Position numbers and translations under genes: made by a program. 28,947 bases of DNA from a virus. A model generated the notes under the pieces. It saw only the letters and a list, made by a program, of their open reading frames with translations. It searched no databases and had not been told where the DNA came from. Shown in pieces: positions 9,024 to 23,850 of the stretch. The stretch is from positions 1-28,947 of IMG/VR virus record IMGVR_UViG_3300037087_000054, one strand, 5' to 3'. Positions within the stretch are counted from its first letter, which is position 1. The number at the start of each line of letters is the position of its first letter.

Positions 9024-9419
9024 ATGCCCGGATCTGTAGCCAACGCTGCACCGGCGACGGTGATGCCGTTGAGCCTGTGCAAAGCCTTCAGCCATTCTCG
9101 CGAATTTGTCGTGCTCGAAAATGAATTCAAGAATGGCGAGTCGCAGCGCAGCAAGGTGACGGCCACGAGCCGTAAATCCTGGCGGACGTCCAGACGTCTG
9201 ACTCCGACGTTTCTGGCAACCTTCCGGGATCACTATGAGGCAAGGAAAGGCCCGCATCAGCCGTTCTATTTCTACGACCCTTACGATTCAGTTTTCAGTT
9301 ATGACGCGACTGGAGTCCAGGCCCTCGGGAGATTCACGGTTCGCTACGTGGGAACGTGGGAGCAGATGGTCGGCATGGGCCGCGCGGATGTGGGAATCAG
9401 CCTGATCGAAATTGCATGA
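9024..9419 (+). CDS. Minor tail / distal-tail protein (gpM-like, DUF2460-like)
   Basis: A 131-residue protein with a GGAGG site that overlaps the tape-measure stop. The layout is an N-terminal strand pair (SREFVVLENEF), basic strands (RSKVTATSRKSWRTSRRL), a helix (FLATFRDHYEARKG), then PFYFYDPYD and C-terminal strands. This is the arrangement of minor tail proteins that form the ring at the tail tip. It aligns by eye with residues 30-130 of the large tail-tip protein at 12366, so the phage carries two versions of this module. Position after the tape measure equals lambda M. Confidence 0.6.
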   Translation: MPGSVANAAPATVMPLSLCKAFSHSREFVVLENEFKNGESQRSKVTATSRKSWRTSRRLTPTFLATFRDHYEARKGPHQPFYFYDPYDSVFSYDATGVQALGRFTVRYVGTWEQMVGMGRADVGISLIEIA

Positions 9420-9438
9420 ATTCAGTAGGGAGATGACA

Positions 9439-10302
9439 ATGAGACGAATAATGATTTTGATTCTGCTGCTTTTGGTCCTGACAATGCCGGCGGTTGCTCA
9501 GAACGTAACTCGCATCCGTAAATTCACTACCGCGATTCCAGATGACGGAGTTGTGACAACGCGGCTCACTGGCATCTACAACCATCGCCTCACATGGACG
9601 GGAGCCGGGACCCGGACGTCCTGCACGATCAAACTTGAACAGAGCGTAGACGGCGTCTCATTCACGGATCTGATCTCCGCTCAAAGTTGCACAACCGATA
9701 GTGCCGCAACAGCAACCGGATACGCCAATTTCGTCCGTATAAATGTGACAGTGCTAACAGGGTCTGGCAATACCGTTTTCGCTGCGTATGCCGGCACTAC
9801 GGTTGCTCCCTCCCTGGGGACGGTAACAGTCGATAATGCGGCGGTGGAAACGGGTGGCAACTTGGCCAGCGTCAAAACCGACGTGGACAAAATACCGTCT
9901 CAGGGACCGGCTCTCCCGTCAGCATCCACGCCCGTCGTGACTTCCCCAAATCCGCTGGTAAACGGATGCAGTGGCGGAAGTGGCTGCGTAACTGCGATGA
10001 CCGGAACGACCTCGACCGTGGTCATAGCTGCGGTCACGTCCAGTTATTTGTACATCACCCATTGCAGCCTGTCTGTGGATTCCGCAACGGTTGCGACTCT
10101 CATGGTGTTGCAGGACGGCGACGGCGGTACGGCCATTTGGAGCGGCTATGTGCCCGTCACTCTTGGCAGAGAGGTAGGTTGGCCTAAGGATTCTCCGCTG
10201 AAAATTCCAACGATCAGCCACGGCCTTTACATCAAGAATGCCACGACTGGCAGCAGCAGTTACGCGAGTTGCAGCGGATTCTCATCGACCGTGAGTTATT
10301 GA
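9439..10302 (+). CDS. Secreted beta-rich protein in tail operon, copy A
   Basis: The ATG at 9439 is preferred over 9412 and 9433 because AGGGAG lies six bases upstream. The 287-residue product begins with a classic Sec signal peptide: MRRIM, a leucine-rich core, then a PAVA|Q cleavage site at about residue 20. The mature protein is Thr/Ser/Val-rich beta (TSCTIKLEQSVDGVSFTDL, NFVRINVTVLTGSGN), with six or more cysteines, some paired as C..GG..C, consistent with disulfides formed outside the cytoplasm. Family unknown. It lies between tail-tip genes, yet is predicted to be exported. It could be a surface moron, or a virion protein matured in the periplasm. Confidence 0.6.
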   Translation: MRRIMILILLLLVLTMPAVAQNVTRIRKFTTAIPDDGVVTTRLTGIYNHRLTWTGAGTRTSCTIKLEQSVDGVSFTDLISAQSCTTDSAATATGYANFVRINVTVLTGSGNTVFAAYAGTTVAPSLGTVTVDNAAVETGGNLASVKTDVDKIPSQGPALPSASTPVVTSPNPLVNGCSGGSGCVTAMTGTTSTVVIAAVTSSYLYITHCSLSVDSATVATLMVLQDGDGGTAIWSGYVPVTLGREVGWPKDSPLKIPTISHGLYIKNATTGSSSYASCSGFSSTVSY

Positions 10303-10309
10303 GGACAAT

Positions 10310-12349
10310 ATGAAAAGACTTTGCTTTTTGCTGTTTTGTCTTCTGATCACCGCTCCCCTCTTCGCCACCCCTCGAGCAGATGTTACGGCCACGGTTGCTG
10401 GCAATGCAGTCGTCTTCGCATGGGACCCGAATACTGAGCCGGACCTGGCTGGCTACAACGTGTATCAGGGCACTCATACTGGCGGGCCCTATACCAAGAT
10501 CGGTTCAGTCGGAGTGATGGCGACCCCGACCTATGCGGACACGAATTCAGCCCCACATGACGAGACGGGATACGCTTGCCATGTGAGTTTAGACAATGCA
10601 ACCTGGTCGACTCCCTATCAGGTAGGTGCTGGCGTAACGACCATGACAGCCGCTCAGGCGTATGGCGCGCCACTCGTGGGCAGTACGCTCTATTATTTCC
10701 AGTGCAAAGCGGTGGGAGATGGCGGGAAGACCACGAATGATAGTGCCTATACGGCGAGTTTCAGTTTCACGACAGGAGCCGTGCGCTATTGGGTCGGGGG
10801 CACGGGCAACACGAACGCAACCACTCACTGGTCAGATTCGTCTGGTGGCGCTGGTGGGCAGAGCATCCCCGGTGCTGTCGATACGGCTATTTGGGACGCC
10901 AATTCGGGCACGGGTTACACGGTCACCGTTGACGCGGCGTTCTCAGTGGGCACGTTCTCGTATACCGGATCTGCATCTAAACTGAATTATTTGACGCTTG
11001 CGGCCAATGTCACGGCTACGAGTGCGTTCACGATTGCAGGAGGCTCGGCAGTCAACAGACCGCTTGTTTCATCCAACACGATAGGGACGGCTCGAACTAT
11101 CACGCTGACAGGTGCAACCGTCTCAATTGCAAATGCTGATTTCCGAGACATCACGATGACTCCCGCGCAGGACATATCCGCGGGAAATAACGGCGGCGGA
11201 ACCATGGCGGGAGATTCCGGAATCACGTTCCCTGCGCCACTTGACATCTATTTCTACAAGGCTTCTGGTAACGCAAACTGGTCCGACTCCAACTGGTTCC
11301 TTGGTTCTGCTGGCACAGGCGGAGCGGGACGTGTACCGTTAATTCAGGACACTGCCAAGTTCCTGAATGGCTTCGGCGCTGCGAGCATGGTGCTGACTCA
11401 GGATATGCCGCGTATCGGAGGCAAGGACTTCACTGGAGCAAACAACACTCCCGAGCTGACGACGAGCACGGGGGCAAGTGTCTTCGGGTCAAGCACGTTC
11501 ATTTCAGCCATGATTCTGACCGAGAGCACGCAGGTTTACACCTTTGAGGGTCGTGGCTCTTATACGATCACGAGTGCGGGGCTGAGTAGGGCAAAGAGCT
11601 TTGTCCTGAATGCACCTGGGGGGACTTACACACTGCAGGATGCGTTTGTGACAACTGGATATTTAGGGCTAATTAACGGTACATTGACGGCCAATAACCA
11701 GAATGTGACCATAGGTTTGTTTGATCACGAGACGGCAGGAACCTGTGTTCTGAATATGGGGTCGGGAACCTGGACGTTAACAGGATCATTGGCAATTTGG
11801 TACGATAGAATTGCCGGAATGACAATAAACGCGGATACAAGTACGATTGTTGCATCCTACTCTGGAACGAACGACAAAGACTTTTATGGTAATGGAAAAA
11901 CATTTCATAATCTGTCTTTTACGGGCGGGACTGGCAACATTGTCCTGATCGACGCGAATACCTTTTCTGGCACTCTCTCCGACCTGAACACCAGCACTCA
12001 TTCAATCACCTTCCCCAACGTCACCACGACCGTTGGCGGATTCGCTCGCGGCTCAGGGACGAATGTAATCAGCCTGATTCGCACGGGAGCAAGCGGGCAA
12101 TTCACGCTGCTAAAGACTGGTGGGGGAGTCGTCAACCTCGATTACATGAGCATCAGCAACGGCGTGGCGAGTCCGGCGACCACTTGGTATGCAGGCGCGA
12201 CTCCTCCAAGTACGGACGGGGGAGGGAACAGCGGATGGGTGTTTACAGCGGCGCCGGCGGGAACAAGCAAGGGCGGTATGCTGCTGCTGTTAGGCGGCAG
12301 GCACGGCGGGCCAGGGGACAACTCAAATCAGCCTCCAAAGAAACGGTGA
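10310..12349 (+). CDS. Secreted FN3 and beta-helix-like protein in tail operon, copy B
   Basis: A 679-residue protein. It has a signal peptide (MKRLCFLLFCLLITAPLFA) and a fibronectin type III-like domain at about 24-155 (VFAWDPNTEPDLAGYNVYQG ... LYYFQCKAVGDGG). Two similar units beginning YWVGGTGNTNATTHWSD and FYKASGNANWSDSNWF follow, then a long parallel-beta region. Near the end LDYMSISN ... TTWYAGATPPSTDGGGNSGW matches a motif I know from phage adhesin-like proteins. The C-terminus has a short hydrophobic GGMLLLLGG and a basic end. It is probably a surface or receptor-binding protein. The region around 11640-11960 is visibly more AT-rich than its surroundings, suggesting module exchange. 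Confidence 0.6.
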   Translation: MKRLCFLLFCLLITAPLFATPRADVTATVAGNAVVFAWDPNTEPDLAGYNVYQGTHTGGPYTKIGSVGVMATPTYADTNSAPHDETGYACHVSLDNATWSTPYQVGAGVTTMTAAQAYGAPLVGSTLYYFQCKAVGDGGKTTNDSAYTASFSFTTGAVRYWVGGTGNTNATTHWSDSSGGAGGQSIPGAVDTAIWDANSGTGYTVTVDAAFSVGTFSYTGSASKLNYLTLAANVTATSAFTIAGGSAVNRPLVSSNTIGTARTITLTGATVSIANADFRDITMTPAQDISAGNNGGGTMAGDSGITFPAPLDIYFYKASGNANWSDSNWFLGSAGTGGAGRVPLIQDTAKFLNGFGAASMVLTQDMPRIGGKDFTGANNTPELTTSTGASVFGSSTFISAMILTESTQVYTFEGRGSYTITSAGLSRAKSFVLNAPGGTYTLQDAFVTTGYLGLINGTLTANNQNVTIGLFDHETAGTCVLNMGSGTWTLTGSLAIWYDRIAGMTINADTSTIVASYSGTNDKDFYGNGKTFHNLSFTGGTGNIVLIDANTFSGTLSDLNTSTHSITFPNVTTTVGGFARGSGTNVISLIRTGASGQFTLLKTGGGVVNLDYMSISNGVASPATTWYAGATPPSTDGGGNSGWVFTAAPAGTSKGGMLLLLGGRHGGPGDNSNQPPKKR

Positions 12350-12365
12350 CCAGGGCTGACACCCA

Positions 12366-15300
12366 ATGAGCGAATATCTCGGCAATATAGAAATCCCAGA
12401 AATCACCCCTTCGGGCACATTCCCTATCACCAGCGACTATGGGTATGGAATGTCCGAAGATCCGCAAGTCGCCATCCACCAGTTCGGCAGTGCGAATGCG
12501 AAGATTGAGCAGAGATTCCTCTTAGGGACCGGCGCGAAGCGGTTTACCGTCCACAAAGCGGCCATGAGTGAGGCGCAACGCGCGGCACTCCGCAACTTCT
12601 GGGAAGCCGAGTACGGAGCTTACGGCGCCTTTACCTACAACGCTCCGAATGATGACGGCATTGGTACCACGCCCTACACGGTTCATATCGCGAATGAGCC
12701 GCTCTCCTGGGAATTCCTGCTCGACTCGCTTTCCACAACCGGCGTCACGCTCGTCGAAATCCCCGCAACTGATCCAACCTACACCCTGAACAGCACTGTC
12801 ACGCGTTTCCCCTCGAGCGGCCTGAAGACTGCCCTGCTCTCGCAGGTCCAAGAAATAATTCCCCTGATCAAGATCCAGCCAAGGGAGACGGGCTATCCCG
12901 CGATCTACGTTTCTGATCGCCGCTGCACCATCGATACGCAGCTCTACCTCGCGCGCATGCTCGAGTTCGACGGCATCTCGCAGTCGATCGGAAACGAGAG
13001 TGATCAGGCGCAATTCACGTTCGGCAACGCCGACCGCGTTATGACGGCGCTCGTTAACGACACCAACCTTAATCGAGCGTCCCTCGAATTCAGCCTCTTC
13101 CACGTCGGGACCGGAATCAAGGTCGACTTGTGGAAGGGCGAAATTGTCAATTGGGCCGGGAGCGAGGGGGCAGAGTTCCAGGTTACGGCGGCGGATGGCA
13201 TTTACGAATTGACGCTCCCCTATCCAACCCGGCAGATATCGCGAACCTGCTGGAAATGCTTCGACGACGGCAATGGCTGCCCATTCACCGCTCAGAGCAC
13301 GGGCATGGACATGACCCATTTTCCGACAGCCGATGATGGGGTCTGCGACAAGAGTTACGACGGGCCAAACGGCTGTATCGCGCACGGGATGAAGCGGTAC
13401 TTTGGCGGGGTAATCGCCGTCCCGCAGAGCGTCATGCTCAAGGACAACTCGAGCGGCACACTCGGATTCGGCAGGACCGCAATCAACAGCACCTCAATCG
13501 TTTCCGATTCCGTTTATGATCAGTTCGTGCCTGAGGTCTACACCGAGGCTCTCTCCTACACGGATCCCAATGGCTACGTCACGACCGGGATGCGCGTCAA
13601 CTGCAAGATCGCCGCGGGCCGTGCGGAGATCGACTTCTATGAGGCGATTGGCATCGTCAGCGAAGGGCCGATCGAGATCAACACCCACGGCCCGACCAAG
13701 GTCAGCTCCACGCAGCTGGGAACCCCCTACGAGATTCCGACTCTCGATAGCCAGTATGACCATATGTATCCGGGGCTCCTCGGCCGCCTGGTAGCTGGCA
13801 ACGACCCGGCCGGGGCCACGGAGTTTTTCTCTCTCGATGCGAATGGAGACAAAACGGCGGGCAACTGGCGACTGATTTATAGCGGTGGCCAAACCTATGA
13901 TGACAATTTCGCGGCGGGCACGTCCTTTCTCACGATCCGCCGGAAGGACACCGGGAGCCTGAGCCTCACGACGCCAAGCGAGCATGCGATGGTTGTCAAC
14001 GTGCTCAACGGCATATCCGGCTGGGTATGGACTGCGGCCAATACGCGCACTTGGCAGGTATTGGGCAACCCAATTTGGATCATCGTCAATATGCTGCTCC
14101 GGGCTCTGGGCCTGCGATTCGCGAGCGCGGCCACCGCGGAAGGCTATTTTGATGTCGATGCGGCGATCGTTGCGGCGGGAATCTGTGAGGAATCCGTTGT
14201 CAGATTGATCGGTACCGGGGACGAGAAGCAATTTGTTTTCAACGGCGCGCTGCAGGAACAGAAGCCATTGCGCGACTGGATTCAGGAGGTCCTGAACAAC
14301 TGCCTGGGATATTTCACGTTCTCATTTGGAAAGTTGAAACTGGGGATCCGTGAAAACTCGTCTGCAGTCGAAGCCTTCACGGTCGGAAACATCATCTTTC
14401 AGAGCCTGCAACTTAGCCCGCTCAAACCTGCATTCAACCACTTGACGGCGAACTTCGGCGACCTCGAGTATAACTTCGCCGCCAATTCGGTGACCGTCTA
14501 CGACATCGACCACGCCAAGTTGATCGGCGGTGCGACCGCTCCGCTATTCCTCAAATCGTCGATAAGCCTGTCCGGCACCTGCACAAAATCTCAGGCGGCC
14601 AGGATCATCTCCACGCGCATGCGCGAGGAACTGGGCGGAGTCGGCGCGGACCAGTGGAAGGCGGGACGGTTGCTGTCCTACAAAACCACCGTCCTGGCAC
14701 TCAACACCGAATCCGGAATGGTCTGCTCCATGACGCATCCGGACATGCCCGCCGGCGCCATCGACGGGGATCCGACCCCGAACTATGGAGAATTCCGGAT
14801 CACCGGATGGAAGCTGAACAAAGATTACTCGATCGAAGTCCAGGGCCAGACGACGACCGATGAAATGTACGATCTGACGATCGGGCCGAAGCCGGCGGAT
14901 GTACTTGTCTCTGCGGTCCCTGTTGAAACAATAATCGCAGGACCCTCCGGCGCCAGCGACCTCGAGGTGTACACGCACGCCGATGACGACACGATCCCGC
15001 TGGGAGCCTACGTCGCACAATGCGCCGGAGAGACCACCTACCAGGAGACGATCAAGGGAGAGGCCTATTGGCTATCGCCGGCGCTGCCGAGCCAGGGCCC
15101 ATACTCCACGCAGCGGACCGCCTTCCCCTCAGCCAGCCTCGAGTCGGGGACCTGCACGGTCCAGGGAGGGACCAAGAGGATCTCCTGCACACGCACGGCC
15201 GCGCCGACGATGGTAGACAAAGTGCTCTGCATATACGTGCCGGGCGACGATCCAGACGCGCAACTCTCCGGGCAGATCATCACCGCCGAAGGCACCGATT

Positions 15301-16904
15301 ATCTTGAGGTGGATCCGGCCTTTGTTTTCAGTGGAAGTTTCTCCTATGTCATCATCCAGCCCTGGTGGGACAAAACCGTCAGCATCGATGTCGGTTACAA
15401 GTGGGTCCCGAAAGAGCAGTTCATCCCGATCACGAGCACCTTGCACAAGACACCTCCGCTAGATGCGCCGGCGGGAACCTACTATCTGACACGCGCCAGC
15501 ATGAACCAGTACGGTCTCGGAACGCTGTTGACGGTCGGCCCGTTCACCATCGTGGCCGCGGGTGGTGGAGTTGGTGACTCTGCAATACCAGGAGAGGCCG
15601 GCTCCCTTGTTGGCACGGGTGCCGGCGGTATATTCCATGTCGATTGGACTTTGCCGACAACCGGCGGCCTGCAGACCCTGGATCAATTTGCCCTGCAGTA
15701 TTCAGTCAACAGCGACCACAGCAGCCCCGTGGCCACCATCATATTGGGTAAGGATCAGCACTACGAATTCATTGGCCCGAATAAGACCTATTATTTCCAG
15801 GTTGCGGCACACAACATGAGCGGGATTGCCAGCGATGCCGGCAGCGTTTCCCTTGGGGCCACGGGCTGGGGGCCATGGAAAACATATCCGGTGGCGGCGT
15901 CCAGCGGAGACTTCACAGGAGCTCCACCTCCCGCGGCGCTTCCCGGATCGGTCAACAGTTTTGCCGTCTGGGTGCAGAACGGGAACGACTTCGTCGCCAC
16001 ATGGGAACCGCCGTCCACGGGCGGACCGTTTGATGACTACCTGCTTGAGTATAGTCCGGTGGCGGCCTTCACGAATGACGGCACTCTGATCTCCGTACCT
16101 CTCGGGACCGTGCTCTCAATAGACGGCAAGGAGTGGGGCAGGACTTACTATTTCCGCATCTCAGCGCACAACCTGAGCGGCATCACAAGCGGTGGCGGCA
16201 GCGGGGATGCGCGCCAGAGTTACTGGCATTCCTCCGGGTGGGGGCCCTGGACGAATTATGGATCGCCAACTGCCGTCACAAGCGACCCAATGCCTACCGG
16301 AAAACTCGATTCGACTGGACAGAGCGGGATAAGCCGCGCCAATACCGGCCTGACGAGCCTGGGTGATGTTGCCAGGACGTTGCCGGATAACAAGGTTCCG
16401 TCCAGTGTCACCACGGGAATCAGTGACGCCCATGCCGCTGGCGACACCGCCTATGATTACGCTGACACCGCCTACTCGCGCGCGGGAACAGCATTAACGA
16501 ATGCCGCGACGGCTGACGGAAAAGCAGTGACAGCCGATGGCAAAGCAGTGACCGCGGACGGAAAAGCGGTGACGGCAGACGGAAAGGCCGTGACCGCTCA
16601 AGGCACGGCAAACACAGCGACAGATCTGGCCAATACCGCTCAAGGTTCTGCTGATACGGCTCAAACTGCAGCCGACACCGCATGGGATCATGCGGAAGAC
16701 GGTATCGCATATACCGGAATCGTCGAAGGCGAAACCGCAACCGCGCAGGGTAGAGCGGATGATGCCTACGACTATGCGGATAGCGCCTACTCGCGGGCAT
16801 CAACCGCTCTGGACACAGCCAACAACGTAGATTCTTCGATTGGCAGTATCGATAGCGAACTGTCCAACCACGAAAGCAGAATTCAATATTTGGAGGATCA
16901 ATGA
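12366..16904 (+). CDS. Tail-tip multidomain protein (M-like + L-like + hub/J-like + FN3)
   Basis: A 1512-residue protein, the largest here. Residues 30-130 resemble the gpM-like protein at 9024. About 170-345 resembles lambda gpL, with cysteines at 295, 298, 305, 327 and 337 that could hold an iron-sulfur cluster as in gpL. About 345-870 is the likely baseplate-hub (J-like) part. Two FN3 domains start near 1078 and 1194 (each with ...YYF...AHN.SGI). The end (about 1360-1512) is a coiled-coil tail with AVTADGK heptads. The protein would form the tail tip that contacts the host. One polypeptide doing several lambda jobs (M, L, J) is the unusual point. No NlpC/P60 (gpK) domain was seen. Weak ribosome site; stop overlaps the next ATG. 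Confidence 0.75.
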   Translation: MSEYLGNIEIPEITPSGTFPITSDYGYGMSEDPQVAIHQFGSANAKIEQRFLLGTGAKRFTVHKAAMSEAQRAALRNFWEAEYGAYGAFTYNAPNDDGIGTTPYTVHIANEPLSWEFLLDSLSTTGVTLVEIPATDPTYTLNSTVTRFPSSGLKTALLSQVQEIIPLIKIQPRETGYPAIYVSDRRCTIDTQLYLARMLEFDGISQSIGNESDQAQFTFGNADRVMTALVNDTNLNRASLEFSLFHVGTGIKVDLWKGEIVNWAGSEGAEFQVTAADGIYELTLPYPTRQISRTCWKCFDDGNGCPFTAQSTGMDMTHFPTADDGVCDKSYDGPNGCIAHGMKRYFGGVIAVPQSVMLKDNSSGTLGFGRTAINSTSIVSDSVYDQFVPEVYTEALSYTDPNGYVTTGMRVNCKIAAGRAEIDFYEAIGIVSEGPIEINTHGPTKVSSTQLGTPYEIPTLDSQYDHMYPGLLGRLVAGNDPAGATEFFSLDANGDKTAGNWRLIYSGGQTYDDNFAAGTSFLTIRRKDTGSLSLTTPSEHAMVVNVLNGISGWVWTAANTRTWQVLGNPIWIIVNMLLRALGLRFASAATAEGYFDVDAAIVAAGICEESVVRLIGTGDEKQFVFNGALQEQKPLRDWIQEVLNNCLGYFTFSFGKLKLGIRENSSAVEAFTVGNIIFQSLQLSPLKPAFNHLTANFGDLEYNFAANSVTVYDIDHAKLIGGATAPLFLKSSISLSGTCTKSQAARIISTRMREELGGVGADQWKAGRLLSYKTTVLALNTESGMVCSMTHPDMPAGAIDGDPTPNYGEFRITGWKLNKDYSIEVQGQTTTDEMYDLTIGPKPADVLVSAVPVETIIAGPSGASDLEVYTHADDDTIPLGAYVAQCAGETTYQETIKGEAYWLSPALPSQGPYSTQRTAFPSASLESGTCTVQGGTKRISCTRTAAPTMVDKVLCIYVPGDDPDAQLSGQIITAEGTDYLEVDPAFVFSGSFSYVIIQPWWDKTVSIDVGYKWVPKEQFIPITSTLHKTPPLDAPAGTYYLTRASMNQYGLGTLLTVGPFTIVAAGGGVGDSAIPGEAGSLVGTGAGGIFHVDWTLPTTGGLQTLDQFALQYSVNSDHSSPVATIILGKDQHYEFIGPNKTYYFQVAAHNMSGIASDAGSVSLGATGWGPWKTYPVAASSGDFTGAPPPAALPGSVNSFAVWVQNGNDFVATWEPPSTGGPFDDYLLEYSPVAAFTNDGTLISVPLGTVLSIDGKEWGRTYYFRISAHNLSGITSGGGSGDARQSYWHSSGWGPWTNYGSPTAVTSDPMPTGKLDSTGQSGISRANTGLTSLGDVARTLPDNKVPSSVTTGISDAHAAGDTAYDYADTAYSRAGTALTNAATADGKAVTADGKAVTADGKAVTADGKAVTAQGTANTATDLANTAQGSADTAQTAADTAWDHAEDGIAYTGIVEGETATAQGRADDAYDYADSAYSRASTALDTANNVDSSIGSIDSELSNHESRIQYLEDQ
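16512..16595 (+). repeat. Four 21-bp tandem repeats in tail-tip gene
   Basis: Four units of 21 bases (starting at 16512, 16533, 16554 and 16575) encode the heptad ADGKAVT four times; a fifth unit is degenerate. Third positions differ between units, so the protein heptad is conserved more than the DNA. This fits a trimeric coiled-coil stalk. The flanks carry a longer protein duplication, AYDYAD.AYSRA.TAL, at about residues 1360 and 1460. Confidence 0.85.
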
Positions 16905-19285: not shown

Positions 19286-19720
19286 ATGAAACGATACGCA
19301 ATCGCAATACCAGTTCTGCTTTTAATGCTGGCCTGCGGGCCGGCAGACCTTCAGAAGGTGGCCCAGGGTCTTGACGCCTTGGCAACAGCTACGGGCACGG
19401 CTCAGACCACTATAATCGAGATGAACCGGCAGGCAATGATCGACACCGAGACGACGCGCGGCATTCTGACCGTATTCCAGGACGTTAACCGGGCTCAGAA
19501 GCAGGCCATCGGCATCACACGGCAACTGACCAAGCTGACCGGGACGACCACGCAGCAACTACAGCAGATCATGGGGCCTATCACTGCCTCGATCAAAGAG
19601 CTGGTGGATAAGGGTGCGGTAGGCATCAAAGACCCGGCGACTCAGCAGAAAGTCCTGGCCGTGATCGTGACGGTCCAGACCGTCATTTCGGCGATAAACA
19701 TCTCTCTCAGTGGTAGTTGA
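19286..19720 (+). CDS. Putative phage lipoprotein
   Basis: A 144-residue protein with AGGAG upstream. It begins MKRYAIAIPVLLLMLAC, a signal sequence ending in a lipobox-like MLA|C (Cys17); the -2 leucine is not ideal. The mature part is helical and Gln/Thr-rich (ALATATGTAQTTIIEMNRQ ... TRQLTKLTGTTTQQLQQIM), suggesting a coiled coil in the periplasm. Position near the holin and endolysin genes makes an outer-membrane spanin-type lipoprotein one possibility; a superinfection-exclusion lipoprotein is another. Confidence 0.55.
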   Translation: MKRYAIAIPVLLLMLACGPADLQKVAQGLDALATATGTAQTTIIEMNRQAMIDTETTRGILTVFQDVNRAQKQAIGITRQLTKLTGTTTQQLQQIMGPITASIKELVDKGAVGIKDPATQQKVLAVIVTVQTVISAINISLSGS

Positions 19721-23126: not shown

Positions 23127-23224
23127 CTAATCCAGATACGAAGCCAACCGGGTGCGACATCATTGTACTCGGATTCATCTTGATCGTCATGTTCGTGGCG
23201 ATCTTGTGGGTGAGCGTGAAATGA
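23123..23224 (+). CDS. Micro-gene, 33-residue single-pass membrane protein
   Basis: ATG at 23123 and TGA overlapping the ATG of the pentapeptide gene, so both ends are coupled. The product has a polar N-terminus ([12 protein letters not shown]) and one membrane helix ([20 protein letters not shown]). Function unknown. Confidence 0.5.
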
Positions 23225-23850
23225 TAGAAATCAAAAATAGATTCACAGGCGAGATCATTTATAAACACGAATCGGATAATCTGCGGGATGTGATGATCGC
23301 CGCGGTGAAGTACAGAGCCAACCTGTCCGGAGCCAACCTGTACAGAGCCAACCTGTCCGGAGCCGACCTGTCCGGAGCCAACCTGTCCGGAGCCAACCTG
23401 TACAGAGCCAACCTGTCCGGAGCCAACCTGTCCGGAGCCGACCTGTACAGAGCCAACCTGTCCGGAGCCGACCTGTACAGAGCCAAGCTGTCCGGAGCCA
23501 ACCTGTTGGAAGCCAACCTGTCCAGAAGCATTTTGGACCCGACAAACAAACCCAATTCTGATACCAAACTATTCGAAGCCGTATCAGATCAAGAGGGATG
23601 GGTTTACGGCTACCGGACACGCGCCACATCTGCCGCTGGACTGGTGCTCCAAGATGATCGGATTTACGGCACGGAGGTATTCAGCACCTCCGATGATGAG
23701 TGTCACCCCGGCTGGTATCTATGGCCAACTCTTGAACTGAGCAAGGGATTCCGAGATGGTGATCACGTCAAGGTCAAAGCTCGCGTCATCGACATCCACC
23801 ATGCGGGCACCAAATGGCGTTCTCGGGCGATATGGGTGATTGGGAGGTGA
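23221..23850 (+). CDS. Pentapeptide-repeat protein
   Basis: Start at ATG 23221 (ATGA overlap); the longer frame from 23152 has no ribosome site. 209 residues. About 30 residues of lead ([17 protein letters not shown]) are followed by fifteen five-residue repeats ([15 protein letters not shown] and variants), which form a right-handed quadrilateral beta helix. A ~100-residue beta domain ([13 protein letters not shown] ... [13 protein letters not shown]) resembles the C-terminal domain often linked to pentapeptide repeats in phages. Pentapeptide proteins can mimic DNA and bind gyrase, but many have other roles; function here is open. Confidence 0.75.
23311..23535 (+). repeat. Fifteen 15-bp tandem repeats (pentapeptide coding)
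   Basis: Fifteen units of 15 bases, mostly exact copies of two types (tacagagccaacctg and tccggagccaacctg) with a few single-base changes. The last units are more divergent. The near-identity at DNA level, including synonymous positions, indicates recent expansion or ongoing homogenisation. Confidence 0.9.

Follow-up and report, generated by a model that had tools for sequence, protein, structure and literature searches.

The window analysed here is an IMG/VR viral record of 28,947 bp, in which two + strand genes with predicted signal peptides (SPs), referred to as gene 1 and gene 2, are flanked by a gpM/DUF2460-like gene and a gene encoding a 1512-aa tail-tip protein (Table 1). The gaps are 19 bp between the gpM-like gene and gene 1, 7 bp between gene 1 and gene 2 and 16 bp between gene 2 and the tail-tip gene, and the coordinates and reading frames that a sequence-only reading had assigned to the two genes are correct. 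On the + strand, neither a promoter-like site just upstream of the pair nor a terminator-like site upstream of it is found with E. coli-type consensus sequences. Given the lack of such a promoter-like site on their own strand and their tight fit in the tail operon, the suggestion that the two genes are a moron finds little support.

Table 1. Features of the two-gene locus and its borders, in window coordinates
Feature	Position	Strand	Basis or remark
gpM-like (DUF2460-like) tail gene, left slot border	9024..9419	+	Pfam DUF2460, E = 6e-4, below cut-off
Gene 1 ribosome-binding site, GGGAG	9428..9432	+	Sequence; 6 nt before ATG at 9439
Gene 1, predicted 287-aa exported protein	9439..10302	+	
Gene 1 predicted Sec SP, aa 1-20, cleavage AVA/QN	9439..9498	+	Rule-based; N-terminal helix 2-20 in model
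Gene 1 C-terminal domain, ~aa 168-287	9940..10299	+	Homologues in L266, L346/L347
Gene 2 ribosome-binding site, GAGG	10301..10304	+	Sequence; 5 nt before gene 2 ATG
Gene 2, predicted 679-aa exported protein	10310..12349	+	
Gene 2 predicted Sec SP, aa 1-19, cleavage LFA/TP	10310..10366	+	Rule-based prediction
Gene 2 FN3-like module (FAWDPNTEPDLAGYNVY...)	10364..10654	+	63% identity to L266 SP-FN3 protein; PDB match
Gene 2 YWVGG/W-repeat beta-rich fibre region, aa 157-645	10778..12244	+	SP-less relatives in L002, DC31
Gene 2 C-terminal tail (...GTSKGGMLLLLGGRHGGPGDNSNQPPKKR)	12257..12346	+	Resembles tail of L266 1048-aa SP beta-helix protein
Tail-tip gene, 1512 aa, right slot border	12366..16904	+	Pfam fn3; relatives in other stretches

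Elsewhere in the window, two tandem, similar genes (1750-2136 and 2186-2569; 128 and 127 aa, MTATG.GF.IP.PPLV...) follow right after the major capsid gene and probably encode duplicated decoration-type proteins. A lipoprotein-like gene with an LMLAC lipobox (19286-19720) is found near genes for small membrane proteins (18530 and 18729) and an M15-like peptidase (18079), a region that is likely the lysis region. The gene at 23152-23850 encodes a protein containing a run of pentapeptide repeats.

Signal peptides and start sites

The protein of gene 1 starts with MRRIMILILLLLVLTMPAVA and that of gene 2 with MKRLCFLLFCLLITAPLFA, and cleavage is predicted to occur before QN and TP, respectively. 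All SP predictions are based on a rule that combines a hydrophobic core, a positively charged n-region and a -3/-1 cleavage site. The n-regions carry KR/RR, and hydrophobicity is 3.86 for gene 1 and 3.41 for gene 2. In the Markov-shuffled window, 12 of 5,044 ATG ORFs (0.24%) pass this rule and none does so at the hydrophobicity of the pair, while in the real window only gene 1, gene 2 and the lipoprotein-like gene at 19286 pass. The claim that both proteins begin with Sec SPs is thus borne out by the rule-based prediction, in which n-, h- and c-regions are all present and far above chance. A chance origin of the signals is ruled out by the shuffled-sequence control together with the enrichment of SPs in the slot described below.

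Mis-annotated start sites were also considered. For gene 2, the only alternative start before codon 51 is a TTG at codon 7, and a mis-annotated start was rejected because no downstream start removes the signal yet keeps the FN3-like region whole. Gene 1 has a TTG-extended form from 9412 and a possible start at Met16; a wrong start is unlikely, since the ATG at 9439 is preceded by a GGGAG ribosome-binding site and Met16 by none. The residues that follow the predicted cleavage sites are Q (gene 1) and T (gene 2), so that the lipobox Cys at +1 is absent, and family searches, including Pfam, revealed neither an autotransporter family match nor an outer-membrane translocation domain in the pair. 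Judged from sequence, Sec export of both proteins is very likely.

Domains of the two proteins and their relatives

The mature part of the gene 1 protein has 6 Cys, in agreement with its earlier description as Cys-rich. Searches of Pfam, NCBIfam, PHROGs and PDB returned for it only phrog_9522, 'major tail protein' (E = 2e-4, aa 35-115). Its C-terminal domain is present in only three viral contigs: in L266 the protein that contains it (E = 4e-16) has a hydrophobic, signal-type N-terminus, while in L346 and L347 the proteins are SP-less and encoded inside a normal tail module.

The gene 2 protein consists of an SP, an FN3-like module and a W-repeat fibre region ('YWVGGTGN...HW'). Homologues favour the FN3 domain proposed for it, as does the one match that the same database searches gave for this protein, a weak PDB hit on an Fn3-like entry (E = 0.016); Pfam returned none. 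The SP-FN3 module also occurs as a stand-alone small gene in many viral contigs, where 41 of the 77 usable matches pass the strict SP rule and further ones seem signal-like by eye; in L009, the closest tail-tip relative, the slot is empty, but an SP-FN3 gene is found downstream. FN3-like N-modules of the gene 2 type have matches in 108 of 200 Terriglobia genomes, mostly over residues 19-120. An SP-less 1227-aa protein of L002 shares 44% identity with the fibre region. Related proteins of Limnohabitans phage DC31 and of Methylophilaceae phage P19250A start with MADRYWVGG or similar and have no SP, and a further SP-less relative is encoded in G033.

Structure models of both proteins by AlphaFold have pLDDT values of 36 and 41 and are unusable. 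The view that both mature parts are beta-rich agrees with these low-confidence models, which do not prove the fold. With the low-pLDDT model of gene 2 as the query, a PDB fold search yielded nothing significant, and BFVD gave 'Parallel beta-helix repeat' as its best-supported match (E = 6e-3), which is not meaningful for the same reason.

In L266, which is an unrelated phage contig, a protein with the gene 1 domain, an SP-FN3 protein (63% identity to gene 2 over residues 16-78) and a 1048-aa SP beta-helix-type protein are encoded in this order next to head-tail adaptor genes. As the set is kept in order, the cassette moves between phages. The window (12257-12346) and L266 (5200-5290) also have in common a C-terminal tail, T-x-K-G-(G/S)-(M/L)-LLL followed by basic residues, which is a possible sorting or anchoring signal of the exported W-repeat and beta-helix proteins.

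The sequence-only reading had named as evidence against export any homologues with a downstream start and no hydrophobic N-terminus. What was found is that SP-bearing families keep their SPs across divergent phages, with the qualification that the mature domains recur, differently fused, in SP-less phage proteins. This recurrence suggests that the mature parts of the pair are structural-type phage modules that have acquired export signals and been rerouted to export.

The variable slot and the QIRD family

An alignment of the N-terminal part of the tail-tip protein (window and L008) was used as the query for a survey of the slot, and relatives of the tail tip were found to be encoded on 158 viral stretches (80 kept) and 28 bacterial genome stretches (27 loci). 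The genome-contig relatives are almost all from Acidobacteriota (Bryobacterales, Solibacter, Paludibaculum and Terriglobia MAGs), which makes an Acidobacteriota bacterium the most likely host of the window phage, and their presence in bacterial contigs means that lysogens probably exist. A gpM-like homologue is located upstream of the tail tip at about 99 phage or prophage loci, mostly of Acidobacteriota, where the length of the slot ranges from -8 bp to 5.2 kb; the slot is essentially empty (<100 bp) at about 23 loci and contains fibre-type modules at many others. The proportion of SP families among protein clusters is 11/63 in the slot, against 6/217 for the upstream head and tail genes (Fisher p = 1.4e-4) and 20/261 for the downstream region (p = 0.03), with genes called by a simple script and clustering that corrects for relatedness only in part. 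SP proteins in the slot include a beta-helix protein in L008 and small proteins in L094 and L109. The VLTDGG fibres, a family reached from L004, were rejected as an SP family: they are mostly SP-less (63 members with no SP), and of the four that the rule flagged, two (L180 and L183) seem to be false positives and a third, L156, is the same as L004, which leaves SPs sporadic in this family.

At eleven other loci the slot is occupied by members of a family termed QIRD here, in which the SP is followed by a domain of ~110 aa (TQIRDTxYTG...EPNDTATPAGTSYxVxY...SERWVVPTS). Neither window protein is among the QIRD profile matches, and the pair is thus analogous to this family, not part of it. Longer QIRD members add tail-fibre motifs (VFGRTGAVTAQAGDY, SHSHDI), collagen repeats (L097, with tail fiber as its best PHROG match, E = 1e-33) or a beta-helix (L043). 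A wider scan found the family at 31 viral loci, and every inspected homologue keeps the SP, placed directly before the domain. QIRD fibres occupy the slot at 11 loci and SP-less fibre modules at 30, with none having both (p = 7e-5), the pattern to be expected if they are alternatives in a single role; a small phrog_4137-like gene accompanies the SP-less modules and is absent from the QIRD loci. Recurrence of predicted SP fibre genes in the same slot of related Acidobacteriota phages means that the pattern is wider than the window pair.

Cysteine content provides a clue to the compartment of folding. A YGPK hairpin repeat is flanked by two Cys in the SP fibres of L097, L126 and L138, whereas no paired Cys accompany the repeat in two SP-less tail proteins, one from Sinorhizobium phage Phosso (738 aa, without any Cys) and one from Burkholderia phage SURPRISE13 (a single Cys over the 1,158 aa read). 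Among the few proteins compared, the paired Cys suggest folding in an oxidising compartment. General Cys enrichment was discarded as an export test, because SP proteins are not higher in Cys than other slot proteins.

QIRD-like proteins are also encoded on host chromosomes. An SP-bearing form is present among host-type genes in 8 of 8 examined Acidobacteriota genomes, in one case beside rpoB/rpoC, and 64 of 151 Terriglobia genomes have such a protein, mostly in one copy. The two long chromosomal forms examined end with GDSL hydrolases. Profile comparison of the phage and host alignments gives E = 6e-39. In the QIRD tree, which is built from a short domain and has several weak branches, the phage sequences lie in long lineages of their own, and labels change only a few times. 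Recent capture of host QIRD genes is therefore not supported, and phages appear to have retained the SP through long divergence. The conserved chromosomal QIRD fibre of Terriglobia seems to be uncharacterised. In layout, it and the phage QIRD family match the mosaic adhesive trimer (MAT) fibres of Bdellovibrio (PMC10769870), which are cellular proteins of a predator; gene 2 has an FN3-like N-module and no QIRD domain.

Several further SP-bearing genes were observed. Terriglobia stretches L239-L246 and L253-L258 encode chromosomal proteins in which an SP, a QIRD-like domain and fibre-type regions are joined in some cases by a GDSL hydrolase as the tip. L138 (6559-8986) encodes an SP protein of ~802 aa with collagen and GDSL/SGNH-like parts, the second of apparently three close SP genes. 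Within structural regions of L141 and L143 there are runs of adjacent SP-like genes, and after the small tail genes of L141 comes a long SP fibre ORF of 1418 codons.

Possible roles and known systems

We regard it as highly probable from sequence that the pair are exported, adhesin-type proteins of modular fibre or adhesin build, encoded in a late operon. Their synthesis would come late, along with that of the tail proteins; Sec would then export them, signal peptidase I would remove the signals, and folding would take place outside the cytoplasm. Because no lipobox or autotransporter barrel is visible, they would probably stay in the periplasm until lysis, when they would meet the released particles and could play an accessory receptor-binding or decoration role on the particle, or act on debris and neighbouring cells. 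On balance we lean slightly toward accessory fibres or adhesins staged in the periplasm. That they form an accessory cassette in a variable tail-operon slot and act with the particle at or after lysis is proposed tentatively, at somewhat below even confidence. The earlier suggestion that the proteins join the virion during lysis is in keeping with their place in the tail slot and with the mutual exclusion of QIRD fibres and SP-less modules there. A broader proposal, for which our confidence is lower, is that Acidobacteriota phages may have fibres that are Sec-exported, folded and disulfide-bonded in the periplasm and attached to tails when lysis mixes the compartments. Several points count against fibres of the particle: we know of no tailed phage that builds fibres from the periplasm, the QIRD domain is common to a chromosomal host fibre that has no particle to bind, the phrog_4137-like gene is missing where QIRD fibres occur, and there is no overall rise in Cys.

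Some of the same observations are compatible with host-envelope adhesins, which would stay with the infected or lysogenic cell in the periplasm, on the outer surface or in a secreted matrix and alter adhesion or block superinfection, in the manner of phage surface proteins that are produced from tail operons. We consider this slightly less likely than action with the particle. Besides the SPs themselves, the prevalence of gene 2-type N-modules and chromosomal QIRD fibres in Terriglobia, the relatives in bacterial genome contigs and the host-type transporter genes near the L095 phage end all point this way, while the close packing into the operon, with no promoter-like site ahead of the pair, the lack of a visible lipobox or outer-membrane translocation domain and the match of the mature domains to SP-less phage proteins argue against it.

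It is unlikely that the pair are decoys or depolymerases that are set free at lysis and cut or coat surface polysaccharide on debris or neighbours, never binding the particle. Related SP proteins have enzyme-like tips or folds, GDSL/SGNH-like in L138 and beta-helix in L008 and L043, but no enzyme domain is recognised in either window protein, and cytoplasmic fibres would escape at lysis without any SP. A cellular precedent is Pantoea WceF, an exported enzyme with a phage tailspike fold and a Tat signal that is encoded in a bacterial exopolysaccharide cluster (PMC7949094); its likeness lies in being an exported protein with a phage-type fold, and the cluster location and Tat signal set it apart. 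Least probable of all, and very doubtful, is a non-working signal whose hydrophobic helix serves assembly of cytoplasmic proteins into the tail: the position inside the tail-tip operon and the structural-type mature domains would suit it, but canonical n-, h- and c-regions occur in unrelated families, the mature domain begins just past the cleavage site in the inspected QIRD homologues, and the existence of SP-less relatives means that the fold does not depend on the helix.

Assembly of tailed phages is taught as purely cytoplasmic. The superinfection-exclusion proteins Cor (N15/phi80) and Llp (T5) are phage-encoded and exported, some of them from near tail genes, but are small lipoproteins or membrane proteins, unlike the modular fibres of the window. 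Accessory tail fibre or spike genes of siphophages, with beta-helix, collagen-like or W-repeat shafts, also occupy a variable tail-operon slot; slot and shaft types are alike, but the ordinary ones lack the SP found in the pair. The PblA and PblB proteins of streptococcal prophages are encoded in tail operons and have been proposed to be bacterial surface adhesins, and a putative SP is described for pneumococcal PblB, while the domain figure legend for that of S. mitis gives none (PMC4508584). The pair resembles them in tail-operon location, proposed adhesin role and, for pneumococcal PblB, putative SP, and differs in that theirs is a Gram-positive host and the proteins are unrelated. A study of Bacteroides phages states the reverse rule for DGR targets: those of phages are without the SPs found on bacterial ones (PMC6199706).

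The literature searched contains no report of Sec-exported tail fibres in tailed phages, and an exported accessory adhesin cassette in a phage tail operon is apparently undescribed there. Recurrent SP fibres in tail operons would imply either a second, periplasmic assembly compartment or widespread phage-encoded envelope adhesins, in phages of one of the most abundant soil phyla, and would connect the fibres of phages with an exported fibre family encoded on host chromosomes. The question is directly testable, as concrete genomes, a conserved slot and natural domain pairs with and without the SP are available. Consecutive SP-bearing FN3 proteins are also encoded by a 20-kb element, Moorella phage MCACPph1 (OR602863.1; L007), whose annotations as 'Hoc-like head decoration' and 'central tail fiber J' look doubtful.
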